Positions 260 through 51,369 of a stretch of 63,328 nt of DNA are shown piece by piece. A model generated the notes under the pieces. That model was not told where the DNA came from. It was given only the letters and a program-made list of their open reading frames with translations, and ran no database searches. Source of the stretch: Bacteroidaceae bacterium (lineage in GTDB: Bacteria; Bacteroidota; Bacteroidia; Bacteroidales; Bacteroidaceae); assembly GCA_017445925.1 (NCBI GenBank), contig JAFSRW010000010.1, forward strand, positions 1 through 63,328, given 5' to 3'. Made by a program: the position numbers and the translations under genes. Each line of letters starts with the position of its first letter. Within the stretch, counting starts at the first letter, position 1.

Positions 260-272
260 AGGTTTTTCAATT

Positions 273-384
273 TTGTCTGACACCTTTAAATCTTGTCTGA
301 AAACCTTTAAATCTTGTCTGAAAACCTTTAAATCTTGTCTGAAAACCTTTAAATTTTGTCTGAAAACCTTTAAATCTTGTCTGA
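273..384. repeat. 21-bp direct tandem repeat, about 6 copies
   Basis: The motif TTGTCTGA recurs at 273, 293, 314, 335, 356 and 377, so the period is 21 bp except for the first step of 20. The unit is roughly ACCTTTAAA-TCTTGTCTGAAA. It begins just after the smalltalk stop and ends just before a terminator hairpin whose 5-prime arm (ATGTCTGAG) resembles another unit. 21 bp is two helical turns, so all units face the same side of the DNA, as in iteron arrays. Open frames across it on both strands encode heptapeptide repeats but are probably by-products of the period. Confidence 0.9.
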
Positions 385-396
385 AAATTGGAAAAA

Positions 397-10217: not shown

Positions 10218-10661
10218 TCATTTTACGCGCCAGTGGCCGCGCTCAAATACCATAGGCACTCCCACCTGTTCATGAACGCTGTCAGCAAAGACTAAATCCA
10301 AGAAGACGTAAGCCGTAGAGTCTGCGGCATAAAGGCTGTCGGAAAGTGCCTCCACACGTACTACCTCACCCTTACGGTCAAGTTCTTTTGCAGCCTGTGC
10401 AATGACATCCTGCATCTGCCGAGTGTAATCTTCAGGGAAAGTTTGGGAATCTGCCATTCCTTCAACAAACTGCTTGGCGTCGCCGTTGACAAAATACGTA
10501 TAGTAACGCTGAGCAGCCTGCTGTACCGACTCGTGCGAGAAGGTATCTGGGGCAGTCTTTGTGCAACTTGCTAGAAATGCCACAAGCAAAAGATAAAGCC
10601 CCCTCCACGCTCCCCCTTTGGGGGAGTGATTTTTATTATTATAGACGAAATCAAACCGCAT
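10218..10661 (-). CDS. small lipoprotein with repeat-derived N-terminus
   Basis: 147 residues. Hydrophobic core LYLLLVAFLAS leads to lipobox Cys33, so it should be lipidated. The mature part (about 110 residues, ending GVPMVFERGHWRVK) resembles DUF4878-like or NTF2-type small lipoproteins that end in a W-x-V strand; no firm family is claimed. Residues 1-11 come from the spacer and 12-22 (SPKGG...WRG) from one arm of the palindromic repeat at 10596-10709. The usual start has therefore been replaced, yet the repeat supplies Lys and Arg needed for a signal-peptide n-region. It lies just downstream of der. Confidence 0.7.
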   Translation of the reverse strand: MRFDFVYNNKNHSPKGGAWRGLYLLLVAFLASCTKTAPDTFSHESVQQAAQRYYTYFVNGDAKQFVEGMADSQTFPEDYTRQMQDVIAQAAKELDRKGEVVRVEALSDSLYAADSTAYVFLDLVFADSVHEQVGVPMVFERGHWRVK

Positions 10662-10709
10662 ATTTACTATTTATAGCACTCCCCCAAAGGGGGAGCAGGG
10701 AAGGGGCTT
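10596..10709. repeat. paired palindromic element (CTCCCCC-AAA-GGGGGAG type)
   Basis: Two inverted copies: palindrome 10610-10626 with its tail at 10596-10609, and palindrome 10679-10695 with its tail at 10696-10709. The 52-bp spacer between them holds the start codon of the lipoprotein gene. Tails point outward. Same architecture as the units at 27240, 27983, 29484 and 35147, but with an AAA/TTT loop and a different tail (GGGGCTT). Confidence 0.9.
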
Positions 10710-24596: not shown

Positions 24597-24640
24597 AAGC
24601 CCCTCCCCGTAATGGGGAGGGGTTAGGGGAGAGGGTCTTT
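24597..24640. repeat. solo palindromic repeat copy
   Basis: CCCCTCCCC-gtaat-GGGGAGGGG palindrome followed by the tail ending GAGAGGGTC. Single copy between leuB and the TPR gene; the tail points toward leuB. Confidence 0.85.
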
Positions 24641-27239: not shown

Positions 27240-27359
27240 GACCCTCTCCCTAACCCTCCCCCTCTATGGGGAGGGAACTGCTACGCAGGGTCATGGGCAG
27301 TTAATATTATCTTGTTCTTATTTAGTCCTCCCCCTAGAGGGGGAGTTAGAGAGGGTCTT
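27240..27359. repeat. paired palindromic element (GACCCTCTCC tail type)
   Basis: Left copy: tail GACCCTCTCCC then palindrome ending near 27277. Right copy: palindrome CTCCCCC-TAGA-GGGGGAG then tail GAGAGGGTC ending at 27358. Spacer about 46 bp with no ORF. The outer edges abut the synthase start and the leuD stop. Confidence 0.9.
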
Positions 27360-27982: not shown

Positions 27983-28114
27983 AGACCCTCTCCTAAACCT
28001 CCCCCTCTATGGGGAGGAACCTTAGAGGATTCTGGGTGTTTATTTAATTGTTAATTCTATTTATCATTCACCTTCTCTACCTCCCCATAGAGGGGGAGGA
28101 AAGGAGGGGGTCTC
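27983..28114. repeat. paired palindromic element between leuC and leuD
   Basis: Left tail GACCCTCTCC at 27983, palindrome to about 28018; right palindrome from 28081, tail ending 28114. Spacer about 60 bp. The right copy overlaps the last codons of leuC, giving it a foreign C-terminus. Confidence 0.9.
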
Positions 28115-29552
28115 TTGGGTCTGTAATTACACCAGTTATCGCACTTGCAGCCACAACGAGCGGGCTCGCCAATATGGTACGGGCACCAGGACCCTGGCGA
28201 CCTACAAAGTTACGGTTGCTGGTACTGATACTGAGTTTGCCTGCAGGAACCTTATCAGGATTCATAGCCAGACAAGCTGAACATGAGGGCAAGCGCAGTT
28301 CAAAGCCAGCCTCTTCCAATATCTTATCAATTCCCTCGTCAATAATTTGCTGACGAACAGCCCAACTACCAGGAACGAGCCAAGCTACGACACTGTCAGC
28401 TTTCTTCTTGCCCTTAACCACGCTGGCAAATGCGCGGAAATCCTCTATACGACCATTGGTACAAGCACCCAGGAAGCAATAGTCAACAGGGGTACCCTCC
28501 AATTTCTGACCAGGCTGGAACTTCATATAATCCAACATGGAAAGGAACTGGGGACGATCTGTTTCTGGTATACTCTCCAGAGTAGGAATACATTCGTCAA
28601 TAGCAATGCCGGCACCCGGATTGGTTCCATAAGTGATACGAGGTTTGATATCCTCGGCACGGTAGGTTACTTCCTTATCGAATACAGCATCGTCATCGCT
28701 GCGTAATTTTTTCCATTCCTCAACGGCACGGTCCCAGGCTTCACCCTTGGGAGCATATTCACGTCCTTTCAGGTAAGCAAAAGTTATCTCATCGGGAGCT
28801 ATCAATCCGGCACGTGAACCCATCTCGATGGAAAGATTAGAGAGTGTAAGACGACCCTCCATACTCATGTTACGAATGGCACTTCCGGCATATTCCACAG
28901 CATAGCCTGTAGCTCCGCTGGTGGTCATCTGGGCCATGATGTAAAGAGCTACATCCTTGGCTGTAGTGCAAGGAGGTAGCGTACCCTCAATGTTGATACG
29001 CATAGTCTTGGGCTTGCTCTGCAGGATACACTGAGAGGCCAACACCTGTGCAACTTCGCTGGTACCGATGCCCATAGCTATTGCCCCTACAGCACCATGT
29101 GTGCTGGTGTGAGAGTCGCCGCATACAATGGTCATGCCGGGCAAAGAGAGTGCTTTCTCCGGTCCTACCACATGAATGATACCATTATCCTTGGTACCCA
29201 TAGTAAAGTGGGTGATACCATATTCGGCACAGTTCTTAGCCAAAGTCTCCACCTGCTTACGACCTACGGGGTCGTCAATACGCTCCTGTTGATCGCTGGG
29301 GGTGTTATGGTCAGGCATAGCATACACATGATCAGGACGGAACACCTTTATTCCCTTGTCCCTTAACGTGTCAAATGCCTGCGGACTGGTTACCTCGTGG
29401 GCATACAGGCGGTCAATATAAAGTTGTGTAGGGCCGCCCTCCACGTTCTGAACAACGTGTGCGTCCCAAATCTTGTCAAATAAAGACCCTCTCCGCCCTA
29501 CGGGCACCTCCCCCTCTAAGGGGAGATTCTGATTTGAATTACTTGTATTCAT
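28077..29552 (-). CDS. leuC: 3-isopropylmalate dehydratase large subunit, both ends repeat-derived
   Basis: 491 residues. The aconitase-type [4Fe-4S] ligands are in [17 protein letters not shown] and [12 protein letters not shown]. Relatives begin at about [12 protein letters not shown] and end at about GVITDP; here residues 1-22 (MNTSNSNQ...VGRRG) come from the endonuclease gene end and repeat copy 29484-29525, and the last about 11 residues ([11 protein letters not shown]) come from repeat copy 28081-28114. The start ATG lies inside the upstream endonuclease gene (14-bp overlap), so translation is probably coupled. Catalytic core looks intact. Confidence 0.93.
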
Positions 29553-29973
29553 CTATATTTTCTTGTATTGTCTTTAATACTTGGTCAATTTCTGAAATAA
29601 TATTCTCGTTTCGAAAACGGAGGACCTTAAATCCCATTTTTTCAAGTTCTTCTGTTCTATAGGCATCCCATTCCATTTGTTTGTCTCTGAAATGATAGCC
29701 TCCGTCAACTTCGATAATAAGAGATTTTTCAAGACAGGCGAAATCCGCAATAAAATTAAGGATTATTAATTGACGTTTGAATCCTACTCCAAGAGCTTTT
29801 CCCTTTAGCTGCCTCCAAAGAAAACTTTCTGCCTCTGTTTGATTTCTTCTATTCTCCTGTGCAAATGATTTGAGCAATCCATATAGTAAAGGATCTGCCA
29901 GTTCGAAATCTCTCTTCATTATTTAATATAGACTCCCATGTTCTCCCCCTAGAGGGGGAGTTAGAGAGGGTCT
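29484..29973. mobile_element. candidate single-gene element: DUF559 gene between inverted palindromes
   Basis: Left repeat 29484-29525 (tail GACCCTCTCC, then a palindrome with an insertion) and right repeat 29943-29973 (palindrome CTCCCCC-TAGA-GGGGGAG, tail GAGAGGGTC), with tails outward. The enclosed 417 bp hold one complete endonuclease-like gene. The other four pairs in the window have the same ends but only a 40-60 bp spacer, so this looks like the gene-bearing version. The right tail contains the leuA stop codon. Mobility is inferred from architecture alone. Confidence 0.55.
29539..29919 (-). CDS. DUF559 endonuclease-like protein
   Basis: 126 residues, full length for the family. N-terminal part has the [18 protein letters not shown] signature, then the PD-(D/E)xK/Vsr-like core: GFKRQ, Asp59 in FIADF, Glu70-x-Asp72 in IIEVDGGYH with His76, and the closing strand [12 protein letters not shown] nuclease fold is well supported; target and role are not known. 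No methylase or specificity gene is nearby, so it is not a restriction system. It interrupts the leucine operon between leuA and leuC, has no promoter of its own in view, and donates the leuC start codon. Bracketed by inverted repeats of the window's palindrome family. Confidence 0.85.
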
Positions 29974-31471
29974 ACCTAAACTTATTGATACAGTCAATAT
30001 AAGCTTCTACACTGGCAGTTACGATATCGGTATTGGCACCAAAGCCATAATAGAGGTGGCCATCGTACTCCACCTGCATGTGAACCTTACCCATATCGTC
30101 AGACCCCTTGCTAATAGCCTGAATAGTAAACTCCTTCAGTGTCATCTTACGCTTGATAATGCACTTCAAAGCATTGATGGCAGCATCTACAGGACCGTTA
30201 CCTGAAGCAGCAGCCTCAAACTTCTCATTGGCTACAAGCAGTCCAATGCTGGCAACGCTCCTAACACCCTTACCGGTTGTAACCTGCAAGTAGTCCAGTT
30301 TGACATTGTGCGAAGCACTTCTGTCAGCACCTGCCAATACCAGGATATCGTCATCCGTAACCTCCTTCTTCTTATCGGCCAAAGCCAGGAAATCCTGATA
30401 TACCTTATCCAGACGCTCGCCGTCAATCTCCACCCCATTTACACTAAGGCGATGCTTCAGGGCTGCACGACCGCTACGGGCTGTCAGTACAATAGCGTTA
30501 TCATCGATACCCACATCCTTGGGGTCCATAATCTCGTAAGTCGAAGCATTCTTCAGCACGCCATCCTGATGAATACCGGAGCTGTGAGCAAAGGCATTCT
30601 TACCCACAATGGCCTTGTTGGGCTGAACGGGCATATTCATCAGACTGCTTACCATACGACTGGTAGGATAAATCTTAGTCGTATTGATGTTGGTCTCTAT
30701 GCCAAGGTCGGGATGTGTCTTGAAAATCATGGCAATTTCCTCAAGCGAGGTATTACCGGCACGTTCACCAATACCATTGATGGTAACCTCCACCTGACGG
30801 GCACCGCCCAATACGCCAGCTACAGTGTTGGCAGTAGCCATACCCAGGTCGTTATGGCAATGAGTTGACAGGATACTCTTACCGGCGGCAAAGGCATCAA
30901 CATGCTCATAAAGATACTTTATCTTCTCATGATATTCGTTGGGGACACGGAAACCTGTGGTATCAGGGATGTTACATACCGTAGCACCGGCCTTGGTAAC
31001 AGCGTCGATGACACGGGCCAGATACTCATTGTCCGTTCTTCCTGCGTCTTCTGCATAGAACTCCACATCCTCAACATACTTCTTAGCATACTTAACGGCA
31101 GCTACCGCACGCTCAATAATTTCCTCAGGAGTTGAGTTGAACTTATAACGGATATGGCTCTCGCTGGTACCGATACCAGTATGGATTCTCTTATGCTTAG
31201 CATATTTCAGAGCATCTGCTGCCACATCAATATCCTTCTCAACGGCACGGGTCAGCGCACAAATGGTGGGCCATGTTACAGCCTTACTGATTTCTATCAC
31301 TGAGTTAAAGTCACCTGGACTGCTAATGGGGAATCCAGCCTCAATAACGTCCACTCCAAGTGCCTCCAACTGGCGGGCCACCTGAATTTTCTCCACCGTA
31401 TTCAACTGGCATCCGGGAACCTGTTCTCCGTCACGCAGTGTAGTGTCGAAAACAAACAATCTGTCACTCAT
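29972..31471 (-). CDS. leuA: 2-isopropylmalate synthase
   Basis: 499 residues. [12 protein letters not shown] signature, metal-binding [15 protein letters not shown], and the [15 protein letters not shown] motif; C-terminal regulatory domain (leucine feedback) after about 390 with [15 protein letters not shown]. First committed step of leucine synthesis and first gene of the operon. The TAG stop at 29972-29974 is the last part of a palindromic-repeat tail. Confidence 0.96.
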
Positions 31472-33032: not shown

Positions 33033-34148
33033 ATGAAATACTCAATTATCATTCCAGTATATAATCGCCCCGATGAGGTGGACGAGCTGCTGCAAAGTCT
33101 AACTACCCAGACCTTCAAGGACTTTGAGGTGGTGGTGGTAGAAGACGGGTCGGATATTCCCTGCCAAGAGGTGGTAGAGAAGTATGCCGACCGCCTGAAC
33201 CTGAAATACTTCAACAAACCCAATAGCGGCCCTGGACAAACCCGCAACTATGGTGTAGAACGCAGCCAGGGTGAATTCGTCATCGTCCTTGACAGCGATG
33301 TAGTCCTCCCCCCCAGCTACCTTGACGCCACAGAACAAGCACTCACCCAAAGGGGGAGCGGGGAGGGGGCCCCAATTGACGCTTGGGGCGGTCCTGACCG
33401 TGCTCACGAGAGTTTCTCCGATGTGCAGAAAGCTATCAATTACAGCATGACTTCCTTCTTTACCACAGGAGGTATTCGTGGCGGTAAGAAGCAGATGGAC
33501 AAGAAGTTCTACCCCCGCTCCTTCAATATGGGAATCCGCAGGTCGCTCTATCAGCAATTGGGCGGTTTCTCTGAAATGCGATTTGGCGAAGACATCGATT
33601 TCAGCATACGCATCTACGAGAGCGGAGCATGTTGCCGACTCTTCCCCGAGGCATGGGTTTGGCACAAGCGCAGAACGGACTTCAAGAAGTTCTTCAAGCA
33701 GGTTCACAATAGCGGCATTGCTCGCATCAATCTGATGAAGCGTCACCCTGGCACCCTTAAGCTGGTGCATCTGTTGCCTGCCGTCTTCACATTGGGAACC
33801 TTTGCCTGCCTGCTGATGGCCTTACTGTTCCTGATTCTTACAGTATTAGGCTTTATTGCTTTGTGGAGTGCGCCAAAGCCTGGTTGCGTCACCGGTCCGA
33901 TGGTTTGCATCATCTTTGGCATCGGTGGTATGCTATTATTCCTTTTGCCATTGATTCTTTTCTCCATAATCATCTTTATGGACAGTTCCTTCCGCAACAA
34001 GAGCGTCAAGATAGGATTCCTCTCTATCTGGGCAAGCTTTATCCAACTTATCGGCTACGGAACAGGATTCCTTCGGGCTTGGTGGCTGAGGTGCGTCTGC
34101 GGTAGAAACGAGGAGTTGCAGGCTTTCAAAAACAATTTCTATAAGTAA
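33033..34148 (+). CDS. family 2 glycosyltransferase with C-terminal membrane helices
   Basis: 371 residues. GT-A fold: SIIIPVYNRPDEVDELL, VVVEDGS, DxD-like VLDSDV near 90, and a FGEDIDFSIR acceptor motif. Three hydrophobic segments after about 240 anchor it in the inner membrane. Residues about 103-113 (TQRGSGEGAP) are encoded by an in-frame palindromic repeat copy, an insertion between the DxD region and DAWGGPDRAH. The gap to radC is 3 bp. Confidence 0.88.
   Translation: MKYSIIIPVYNRPDEVDELLQSLTTQTFKDFEVVVVEDGSDIPCQEVVEKYADRLNLKYFNKPNSGPGQTRNYGVERSQGEFVIVLDSDVVLPPSYLDATEQALTQRGSGEGAPIDAWGGPDRAHESFSDVQKAINYSMTSFFTTGGIRGGKKQMDKKFYPRSFNMGIRRSLYQQLGGFSEMRFGEDIDFSIRIYESGACCRLFPEAWVWHKRRTDFKKFFKQVHNSGIARINLMKRHPGTLKLVHLLPAVFTLGTFACLLMALLFLILTVLGFIALWSAPKPGCVTGPMVCIIFGIGGMLLFLLPLILFSIIIFMDSSFRNKSVKIGFLSIWASFIQLIGYGTGFLRAWWLRCVCGRNEELQAFKNNFYK
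33340..33373. repeat. palindromic repeat copy inside glycosyltransferase gene
   Basis: CTCACCC-AAA-GGGGGAG followed by tail GGGGAGGGGGCC, matching the copies at 10596-10709. The reading frame passes through it. Confidence 0.8.
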
Positions 34149-35146: not shown

Positions 35147-35257
35147 GACCCCCTCTAACTCCACCTCTATGGGGAGAACACTATAAAAGAAACTGACATC
35201 GACCCTGCAAAGCAGTTCCCTCCCCATAGAGGGGGGGAGGGTTAGGGAGAGGGTCTA
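35147..35257. repeat. paired palindromic element between DUF59 and lpxH
   Basis: Left copy with tail GACCCCCTC then a weaker palindrome; right copy with palindrome CTCCCC...GGGGGAGG and tail GAGAGGGTC. Spacer about 40 bp. Tails outward, as in the leu operon pairs. Confidence 0.88.
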
Positions 35258-49320: not shown

Positions 49321-51369
49321 GCCATTAATGATGTAGATGTCCTTCTTCAATTGTGAATTATGAATTATGAATTGTGAATTGACCTTACGTCCACTCAGGT
49401 CGTAAACTGATTGAGAATTGAGAGACGAGAGGCCGCTTCCCCGCTCCCCCTTTAGGGGAGTGTTTATCGCAGAATTATTAAACATAGCTTTAATTCCAGT
49501 TTCCTTTTCCGTCGTTTGGTCCTCTACCATGTATTTGCCTGCGTCTTGAGTACCTGTTATACAAAGGTAGCTATCGGAACGGAGGCCCGTAATATCCACA
49601 GTCTGTTTATTGCCGGATGTGGTGCTTACCACCAGATTAAGGTATTGGTCTGGGGAAGTAAGCTCGTAAGTTTGATAGTACCATCGTTTGCCCTCTATGG
49701 TCTTAGTGGTGTTGACTCGCTTTCCTGGCCAGTTGCCGCTGAGTTGCTTGTTGGCATTGTCCCAGACATAAAAAGTCATGCCTGTCCAAGTAACATCGGA
49801 ACAGACATGGAGGGTAATATCGTGCGGCTGAAAAATCTTGTATTCCCGTTGCTGAACACCCGTAACCTTTCCTCCTGAAAGAATGCCTGCCCGGAGGGTG
49901 CAGGAAGATTCTATGTTGAGTATCGCGCCACTTGTCAGTTGAGAACTCTCCGCCGTTGGCTCTGAACCATCCAAGGTATAGACGATGCTGGCTTCAGAGA
50001 GGGTGCTGGCAGCTGTAAGCTTGACCTTCAGAGGTGCTGCGTAGATGCCGTCTGGCACATCCATCCATACGGTATTGGCGCTCCGGCTTAAACAATAGCG
50101 ATAGCCTTTGCCGGAAAGAATCTCGGTATATTGGGTCTTGCTCACATTATAATTCTGGGGCGTATCGCCTACCACACAGAGCAAAGTTCCCTGCTTACCC
50201 GTAGTAGCTGCTGCATAGTAATGCTGAGTACTGGCTTTCTGCTGACTGGCACTGGTGTTGGTAATGCCTGCCAATCGGCGAGCCAAAATCATCTGCTTAA
50301 TGGCATAGCGATTATCCTGCCAATGTGTGTAGAAGATACAAGGCGTTCCGGGCATAGCCAACAGATAGGCATTGGCAGCAAGGGTATCTGTGCGGATGGG
50401 ATCTTGCTCATCTCCGTTGCTTCGCTTTTCTGTATCGTGATTCTCCACGAAGGTAACAGCATACCTTTTATAATTATTGTCGGCAGAAAGCGGTTTCTCA
50501 TCATATCCAAGATTACGCCAATCACGACTGTTAACGGCATCGCGCATACGATAGCGGAACTGAAAATCAAAGGCAGCGCTGGTAGGCTTGTCGGATACAT
50601 AACCCTTGCTGTTGTTCACCCATTGACGGATTTTATTGGTACTGTCCCAATACTCGCCAACGCTGAACGCCGGCTGAGCATAGGTATTATAATCTGCGAT
50701 AAAAGAGGCATAGAAACCCTTGACCATATCGTAACGGAAGCCTGTATAACCTATATCCTCAAGGAGAAACTTCAGATAAGCCTTAACGCATTCCTGCACA
50801 TTAGGGCTCTTGTGGTCAAGGTCGCGACAACCAGGCCAACCCTCGCCCGTATCGTTATTCTCTGACAATGAAACACCATGCTGACTGGCCCATTCTGCCG
50901 TCTTGCCGTCATCATCGTTCAGACAAATATCGGAAGGCAGCATCTGATAGGTCTGCCCGTTGTAGGTCTCGGCAGGATAATCCACCCACGACCCGTTCCG
51001 ACCCATGTTCTCGCGATGATTGATAACCACATCGGCTATCACACCCGTTCCTCTTTGCTTAAAAGCAGCAATCATGCTACGCAACTGGACTTCGGAACCA
51101 AAGGAACTCTTCTGATTAAAGTAATAGACAGGCGTGTACCCCATCATATTACGGTCTGTATTACACCATCCGCTCTGCGGCACCCAAACAAGTTGGAAGT
51201 AGGGAGCTATCTCATCGGCCTGCGCCTGCAGGTTAGTCCATGAAGTTTCCGAGAAGGAATCCCAATAGAATCCTTGCAGCATTACGCCTTCATAGTCAGC
51301 TGGCCAACCCTGAGCCAGGGAGCTCAGCCGAAACAACATCAGCAACAGTAGCAACGTGATTTGTTTCAC
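49300..51369 (-). CDS. secreted alpha-amylase (GH13) with repeat-built C-terminal tail
   Basis: 689 residues; signal peptide 1-19. GH13 barrel with Asp214 (GFRYDMVKG), Glu239 (FSVGEYWD) and Asp312 (FVENHDTEKR). Then a chitobiase-type Fn3-like domain (about 425-500, SIVYTLDGSEPT) and a CBM26-like starch-binding domain (about 505-600). The tail shows YDLSGRKV...DIYIINGKK, the T9SS-style signal, but its linker is coded by a palindromic repeat and a heptamer array, and the last residues by a terminator hairpin. Endo-hydrolysis of starch at the cell surface. Confidence 0.9.
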   Translation of the reverse strand: MKQITLLLLLMLFRLSSLAQGWPADYEGVMLQGFYWDSFSETSWTNLQAQADEIAPYFQLVWVPQSGWCNTDRNMMGYTPVYYFNQKSSFGSEVQLRSMIAAFKQRGTGVIADVVINHRENMGRNGSWVDYPAETYNGQTYQMLPSDICLNDDDGKTAEWASQHGVSLSENNDTGEGWPGCRDLDHKSPNVQECVKAYLKFLLEDIGYTGFRYDMVKGFYASFIADYNTYAQPAFSVGEYWDSTNKIRQWVNNSKGYVSDKPTSAAFDFQFRYRMRDAVNSRDWRNLGYDEKPLSADNNYKRYAVTFVENHDTEKRSNGDEQDPIRTDTLAANAYLLAMPGTPCIFYTHWQDNRYAIKQMILARRLAGITNTSASQQKASTQHYYAAATTGKQGTLLCVVGDTPQNYNVSKTQYTEILSGKGYRYCLSRSANTVWMDVPDGIYAAPLKVKLTAASTLSEASIVYTLDGSEPTAESSQLTSGAILNIESSCTLRAGILSGGKVTGVQQREYKIFQPHDITLHVCSDVTWTGMTFYVWDNANKQLSGNWPGKRVNTTKTIEGKRWYYQTYELTSPDQYLNLVVSTTSGNKQTVDITGLRSDSYLCITGTQDAGKYMVEDQTTEKETGIKAMFNNSAINTPLKGERGSGLSSLNSQSVYDLSGRKVNSQFIIHNSQLKKDIYIINGKKKTAP
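49351..49378. repeat. heptamer array TTATGAA inside amylase tail
   Basis: Four 7-bp units in register; in the minus frame they encode the NSQFIIHNSQL linker between the two halves of the C-terminal signal. Confidence 0.85.
49430..49462. repeat. palindromic repeat copy inside amylase tail
   Basis: Tail GGCCGCTTCCCCG then CTCCCCC-TTTA-GGGGAG. Encodes the segment around PLKGERGSGL in the amylase. Confidence 0.8.

Follow-up and report, generated by a model that had tools for sequence, protein, structure and literature searches.

The analyzed window, the whole 63,328-nucleotide stretch of contig JAFSRW010000010.1 from a Bacteroidaceae bacterium (GCA_017445925.1; assembly ∼84% complete), carries between leuA and leuC a small gene of the DUF559 (YcjD) type that is bounded on each side by a stem-loop and a tail, the two ends being inverted relative to each other. 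Further copies of such ends, in pairs or as single halves, lie elsewhere in the window, as follows.

10598..10707: short paired unit with another tail type (..GGGGC)
24603..24637 (+): single half unit with a GAGAGGGTC tail
27240..27357: short paired unit between leuD and the next gene, same tail type as the DUF559 element
27984..28112: short paired unit between leuC and leuD, same tail type as the DUF559 element
28077..29552 (-): leuC, lacking the native start of its relatives; its frame crosses the element end
29484..29973: the whole DUF559 element, between leuA and leuC, with a tail and a stem-loop at each end, inverted
29484..29525 (-): downstream element end (relative to the gene), with stem-loop CTCCCC-TTAGAG-GGGGAG, a small extra hairpin GCCCGTAGGGC, and tail GAGAGGGTCT
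29539..29919 (-): gene for a predicted DUF559 (YcjD-type) nuclease, 126 aa, catalytic residues intact
29943..29973 (+): upstream element end, with stem-loop CTCCCCCTAGAGGGGGAG, TTA, and tail GAGAGGGTCT, inverted relative to the other end
29972..31471 (-): leuA, with its stop codon (TAG) lying across the element boundary
33338..33370 (+): single half unit inside ORF 33033-34148, with the in-frame reading ALTQRGSGEG
35147..35255: short paired unit, same tail type as the DUF559 element
49432..49465 (-): single half unit

The downstream end, which falls within the leuC open frame, comprises a tail (AGACCCTCTC, 29484-29493) and a stem-loop (29508-29525); the upstream end has its stem-loop at 29943-29960 and its tail GAGAGGGTCT at 29964-29973, and the outermost letters of the element read AGACCC..GGGTCT. 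A layout of tail, palindrome, spacer, palindrome, and tail, with the tails pointing outward, had been described for five units of this window in the original prediction, and all five, the DUF559 unit and four short paired units, were found again, although the coordinates give lengths of 109 to 129 bp for the short units instead of 111 to 132 bp. The ends of the short units are common with those of the gene-carrying element of the same genome, as expected of nonautonomous partners. For example, the half at 27325-27358 matches the upstream end of the DUF559 element at 97% identity over 34 nt, and a unit of the same type as this element lies elsewhere in the genome (L330, 15054-15128). The 27984-28112 unit is missing from relatives such as L127 and L131. 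The signal lies in the arrangement and not in the tail word, since GAGAGGGTC alone (≤1 mismatch) is not over-represented in the window: 14 matches were found against a shuffle mean of 11.25, and 23 of 100 shuffles reached 14. The ORF that surrounds the half unit at 33338..33370 is, by our own reading, glycosyltransferase-like. At window positions 261-387, a 21-nt direct repeat (ACCTTTAAATCTTGTCTGAAA) occurs in tandem.

Three DUF559 genes were found in this genome. The two outside the window, each with inverted ends of its own type, are placed before what we take to be coaD (L001) and purD, and the tail type of the short unit at 10598-10707 resembles that of the element before coaD. The window gene had been predicted to encode an intact relative of Vsr, not a Y1 transposase, and the profile searches agree: the protein matches the DUF559 profile PF04480 with 111 bits (cut-off, 20.6) and MTES_1575 weakly, and the Y1 profile was not matched. 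The four residues named beforehand (Asp59, Glu70, Asp72, and His76) are all invariant in a 61-sequence alignment spanning several phyla, in which 11 columns are invariant, E31, D85, and R101 among them; with its catalytic residues intact, the protein is a predicted nuclease. Profile matches among solved structures are 3hrl, an “endonuclease-like protein” (1e-34), and, second best, the mobile-intron protein 3r3p (5e-8), which we take to be a homing endonuclease of the EDxHD/Vsr type. YcjD has been placed in the PD-(D/E)XK superfamily near Vsr, according to the available part of one study (PMC1189080). PADLOC returned only weak matches for the window protein, including one to a homing-endonuclease model (6e-5). 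To our knowledge, YcjD has no established role.

Inverted ends were scored by comparing the 300 nt upstream of each DUF559 gene with the reverse complement of the 300 nt downstream, a score of at least 14 counting as a pass. Palindromes had been predicted to flank the DUF559 genes of relatives, and this expectation was borne out in the genus of the window genome, where 83 of 93 copies, chosen in rank order of their PF04480 score and not at random, pass (median score, 29; the three copies of the window genome included), compared to 1 of 105 distant flanks and 53 of 606 mispaired flanks. Two of the 124 copies (L065 and L115) were omitted from this scoring because of a short flank, and near-duplicates among the genomes are few (e.g., L079 and L080 within one assembly). 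In many genus copies, the loop of one end is the reverse complement of the loop of the other, which identifies the two as true inverted ends.

Beyond the genus, 15 of 29 copies in a broader Bacteroidota sample pass and 14 fall below the threshold. Strong DUF559 genes of other genomes pass in 35 of 36 cases, versus none of 16 weak DUF559-like genes that the same searches returned; half of the strong set (18 genes) comes from ten named genomes, which are of Proteobacteria, a planctomycete, and two Bacteroidota, and the other 18 come from 150 genomes of the family of Ramlibacter. Among alphaproteobacterial loci, 22 of 30 pass and 8 of 30 stay below the threshold (control, 0 of 28). Six loci were examined from a plasmid collection (47 records); only the Deinococcus locus passes, and the other five are below the threshold. 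By eye, motif copies lie alongside the E. coli, Neisseria, and Synechocystis genes of this collection. In Neisseria gonorrhoeae (L370), hairpin-tail repeats with the same reading direction stand on both sides of the DUF559 gene, and on a Synechocystis plasmid (L373), the gene lies between repeat-like stretches just before the annotated pglX of a BREX system. Viral contigs yielded 19 candidate stretches for DUF559, none of which was confirmed, and phage records yielded two weak matches. The direction of the tails differs among groups: of the 83 genus copies with clear ends, 54 have both tails out, 2 have both in, and 27 are mixed or unclassified; in the family of Ramlibacter, both tails point in at 11 of 17 loci and both out at none; and the phylum sample has 3 with both in and 2 with both out, of 15. 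Such a mixture is not what one simple end-recognition model would predict.

The original prediction was right in essence but understated the scope. Two features lay beyond its view, namely, the pairing of gene and repeats across several phyla and the intrastrand-triplex design of palindrome plus tail. When tails were compared with the reversed G-rich arm of their own stem (A opposite A or T), the mean match was 6.37, versus 5.27 (SD, 0.175) for the tails of other elements, and none of 10,000 permutations reached this value (one downstream end taken from each of 38 contexts). Such mirroring of a stem by its own tail is the design of an intrastrand purine triplex, with the tail as the third strand. 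The ends thereby match the three-block design of the BoxC/PIT/TM repeats, that is, a C-rich arm, a loop, a G-rich arm, and a mirror purine block, the window copies being a shorter variant of the BoxC-type motif (CTCCCC..GGGGAG..GAGAGGGTC). As reported in the available text of Holder et al. 2015 (PMC4666352), the K-12 motif folds as a triplex in solution, the repeats are linked to genome rearrangement, five close inverted pairs exist, and no mobility gene is described around the E. coli copies. The canonical consensus, read from a mutated control oligonucleotide of that study with the changes undone, occurs in the form CCCTCTCCC..GGGAGAGGG..GGGTGAGGG in 49 of 337 alphaproteobacterial genomes. 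YcjD of E. coli K-12 is a DUF559 protein, and a BoxC-type copy lies 167 bp after its stop codon; in strain KE47, an inverted motif copy lies 14 bp after the matched DUF559 domain. The E. coli gene is not tidily framed by such copies, with inverted-end scores of 9 and 8 in two strains.

For the 124 DUF559 copies, 66 different downstream host contexts were distinguished, and a genus genome has up to 8 copies. Units with clear ends in the genus are ∼440 to 725 bp long, mostly near 500. In the protein tree, which is built on a short alignment and leaves many forks unresolved, copies group by site, so vertical persistence is common; tight clades also span different sites. The best-matching close pairs from different sites are homologous in DNA up to their outer ends, give or take a few bases, and have unrelated flanks. 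For example, the homology of L059 and L086 runs from -76 to +72 relative to the domain, the element ends being at -76 and +70, and that of L030 and L081 runs from -62 to +112, with element ends at -63 and +109; many of the other 398 pairs have alignments that break off within the unit. That closely related elements have DNA in common as far as their ends, and not beyond, although they sit at unrelated sites, argues strongly that the DUF559 unit is a mobile element with defined ends, a reading that is very probably correct. The tips of the aligned families read GACYC...GRGTC or nearly so, and others, such as L001, read AGCC...GGCT. No target-site duplication was seen by eye in the leuA-leuC junctions or in the aligned close pairs.

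At 17 of 125 leuA-leuC junctions in the genus, a DUF559 gene lies ≤700 nt before LeuC, with several end types. Empty sites with clean boundaries had been expected in close relatives. The element is indeed absent from the junction in the four closest (L125 to L128; 97% LeuC identity), but the boundary is not perfectly clean, a few bases, including the native leuC start, being missing. At six junctions (L229, L129, L245, L152, L131, and L267, in genomes G026, G071, G073, G086, G123, and G131, respectively), only a left-tail-like stretch, reaching to about the base of the hairpin, precedes a normal leuC start, which looks like recurrent loss starting at the hairpin. In three genomes (L257, L243, and L250 in G015, G044, and G122), LeuC seems to have an N-terminal extension like the element end, with no DUF559 gene there. 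Three E. coli strains without ycjD were examined as well; efflux genes follow sapF in them, and they are therefore not empty sites.

Host reading frames extend into the elements. In the window genome, the frames of leuC and coaD reach back, uninterrupted, across the element end as far as an ATG overlapping the stop codon of DUF559, whereas purD and DUF559 form a single frame of 572 codons with no stop between them, a fusion rather than a restart. Comparison with relatives shows that the native leuC start is missing from this genome; those of coaD and purD are presumably missing too, judging from the usual N termini of these proteins. Of the 41 genus contexts in which the ends are clear, the host frame downstream is open on the same strand in 38, and an in-frame ATG precedes the boundary in 29 (53 of 83 copies). 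Elsewhere in the phylum, the whole DUF559 domain lies in frame within host proteins, which we take to be MetH, LeuRS, UvrC, HsdR, and a PurL-like enzyme. From these open frames, we infer that the element ends are probably translated as part of host proteins.

Repeats and DUF559 genes also occur together at the level of genomes. The unit pattern has 5394 forward matches in the genus, versus 298 for the reversed pattern; unit counts refer to the forward strand, and one site may count twice. The median number of units is 39 in DUF559-positive genomes (n = 97) and 4 in negative ones (n = 42), and unit number correlates with DUF559 (Spearman, 0.72; 0.63 after two units per element are subtracted), three genomes with weak PF04480 matches (G062, G077, and G109) being counted as negative here and in the kinship-controlled tests of the genus. 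The medians agree with the expectation that genomes without DUF559 would be repeat-poor, but six negative genomes have at least 20 units, including G016 with 66 and G022 with 90 (drafts that are 84% and 80% complete); these, as well as eight positive genomes with <5 units, count against the explanation preferred below. The tests that control for kinship disagree and leave a mixed result: PGLS with fitted lambda (LeuC tree, 125 genomes) is significant for DUF559 copy number (P = 6e-8) and presence (P = 5e-6), whereas the correlation vanishes in independent contrasts (r = 0.10, P = 0.25), and independent pairs point in the right direction without being significant (4.6 versus 0.5 of 13).

In the family of Ramlibacter, a family-specific repeat occurs in 10 of 19 DUF559-positive genomes (9 of 19 if a genome with its sole match at its own DUF559 end is dropped) compared to 7 of 131 negative ones. 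The canonical motif occurs in 38 of 80 alphaproteobacterial genomes with a strong DUF559 match (E below 1e-20, as in 80 of the 109 genomes with a match) and in 11 of 257 negative genomes (P = 2e-18, kinship uncontrolled); for genomes of at least 2.5 Mb, the counts are 35 of 68 and 8 of 106. At least 5 copies are present in 18 positive versus 3 negative genomes. In both of these groups, the repeat matches may include the ends of the DUF559 genes themselves. In each of the three groups, genomes with DUF559 are more likely to have such repeats than those without.

The picture that we consider probable as a whole is that of a small mobile element with inverted ends of triplex design, the sole gene of which encodes a YcjD-type DUF559 nuclease that uses these ends. 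The same pairing of enzyme and repeat in distant bacteria suggests that the enzyme may spread the repeat, and as the best reading of the comparisons, we infer that the nuclease probably moves the repeats. The nuclease would recognize the hairpin or triplex of the ends in single-stranded or cruciform DNA and would nick or cut at the folded ends; the element would then be copied to new places via host repair or replication. The short paired units would be nonautonomous copies served in trans, as REPINs are by RAYT, and insertions would survive at gene junctions or other tolerant positions; with few stop codons in the GC-rich ends, they could be tolerated and read as new N termini or linkers of host proteins. 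Of the autonomous mobile form in the original prediction, the mobile unit with its apparently defined ends stands, and the nuclease that would move it is the conditional part. In a bolder version, for which we would put the chances just short of even, the DUF559/YcjD proteins would be the missing enzymes of the BoxC/PIT/TM repeats, forming a transposition system analogous, and unrelated, to RAYT-REPIN, in which a lone Vsr-type nuclease recognizes a triplex-forming end, spreads itself and gene-less pairs, and rewrites the termini of host proteins. Should the enzyme recognize the triplex, transposon ends would be defined in a new manner; the link between YcjD and BoxC is a question directly testable in a laboratory strain.

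The shared ends of short and DUF559 units would also be seen if the repeats spread by some other route and DUF559 were a homing-type nuclease that cuts them, its gene being copied in by repair via those ends. The second-best solved relative, a mobile-intron protein (3r3p, 5e-8), and the clustering of same-site copies, as allelic homing would give, point the same way; however, such homing requires a second, unknown mobilizer for the repeats, the repeats track DUF559 itself, and the two ends can also share sequence inside them (54 and 71 nt in L043 and L063), so that we regard it as unlikely. We consider it quite improbable that DUF559 is instead a host or addictive nuclease that processes (repairs or trims) triplex or hairpin repeats and is regulated by them or tolerated in them without mobilizing them. 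Up to 8 copies per genus genome, the 66 contexts, and the boundaries shared at different sites speak against such a role, whereas the presence of ycjD in 3365 of 5426 E. coli genomes, the existence of Vsr-like repair relatives in the accessible parts of two studies (PMC12907096; PMC1189080), and the single context shared by 18 of the 36 strong loci, which counts against the mobile-element reading, would suit it.

If the palindromes were ordinary REPs mobilized by a Y1 (RAYT/IS200) transposase and DUF559 were a passenger, the REPtron-like layout would be accounted for, and PF01797 is matched in 62 of 139 genus genomes, many of the matches being weak. Nevertheless, this is very improbable, given that no PF01797 (Y1 transposase) match was found in the window genome (∼84% complete), that the presence of Y1 does not track unit number in the genus (P = 0.23; PGLS, P = 0.64), and that the triplex motif is at the ends of none of the four Y1 loci examined (L219 to L222). 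These Y1 genes have other inverted ends, three of the four with a (G)TAGCCAGCC..GGCTGG hairpin, a separate REP system. Hairpins rich in GC often occur close to the ends of genes, but chance or ordinary terminator-like hairpins around an unrelated gene were rejected as practically negligible in view of the end controls (1 of 105, 0 of 16, and 0 of 28) and the covariation of stem and tail mirror. Since CGTC REPs are described in the consulted part of one study as lacking a dedicated transposase (PMC3733652), DUF559 was also tested as their enzyme. This was not supported: a CGTC-like motif occurs at 1 of 30 alphaproteobacterial loci, without a hairpin.

The preferred reading of a mobile DUF559 element invites comparison with known systems, and the parallel with REP and RAYT drawn in the original prediction is apt. 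As in REPtrons, according to the available portions of two studies (PMC3733652; PMC6006769), a small gene stands between inverted hairpin repeats, gene-less pairs occur elsewhere in the genome, and no target duplication is seen. In contrast to REPtrons, the enzyme is a predicted Vsr-related nuclease and not HUH-Y1, and the repeats have a mirror purine tail instead of GTAG/CGTC tags; the DUF559 element is therefore REPtron-like and yet no REPtron, because the HUH-Y1 enzyme and the GTAG tag are absent. The BoxC/PIT/TM repeats have the same three-block design, and the K-12 copy downstream of ycjD fits the motif, but the available text reports no mobility gene for them in E. coli (PMC4666352), whereas here a nuclease gene lies between or beside the motifs in several phyla. 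The 3r3p mobile-intron nuclease has a related domain (profile E value, 5e-8), but no intron or intein was recognized here, the DUF559 gene being bounded by repeats. Unlike in a DDE insertion sequence, the enclosed gene is a DUF559 ORF, and no target duplication was seen by eye. We know of no transposon family that is run by a lone Vsr-type nuclease. A literature search, judged mostly on listings and the openings of abstracts, turned up nothing that connects DUF559, COG2852, or YcjD with palindromic, REP, BoxC, or triplex repeats; we rate the pairing of DUF559 with the repeats as new, the repeat class and the protein family each being known separately.

Palindromic elements of Rickettsia are read in frame in host proteins. 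The DUF559 element resembles them in that palindromic repeats lie in frame inside host proteins, and in-frame capture of host starts is a possible route to new N termini for core enzymes (LeuC, CoaD, and PurD). Two types of the Rickettsia elements are named as CGTC REPs in the available part of one study (PMC3733652); unlike in these, the insert here can carry a whole nuclease domain. At several loci in the phylum, the domain lies in frame within large host proteins or is fused to them, the hosts being, by our own reading, MetH (L104, L106, L112, L114, and L123) and LeuRS (L098, L101, L117, and L122), with L096, L102, L105, and L116 in addition. The linkers of such in-protein domains are encoded by repeat-like ends, and copies in the same protein form clades.
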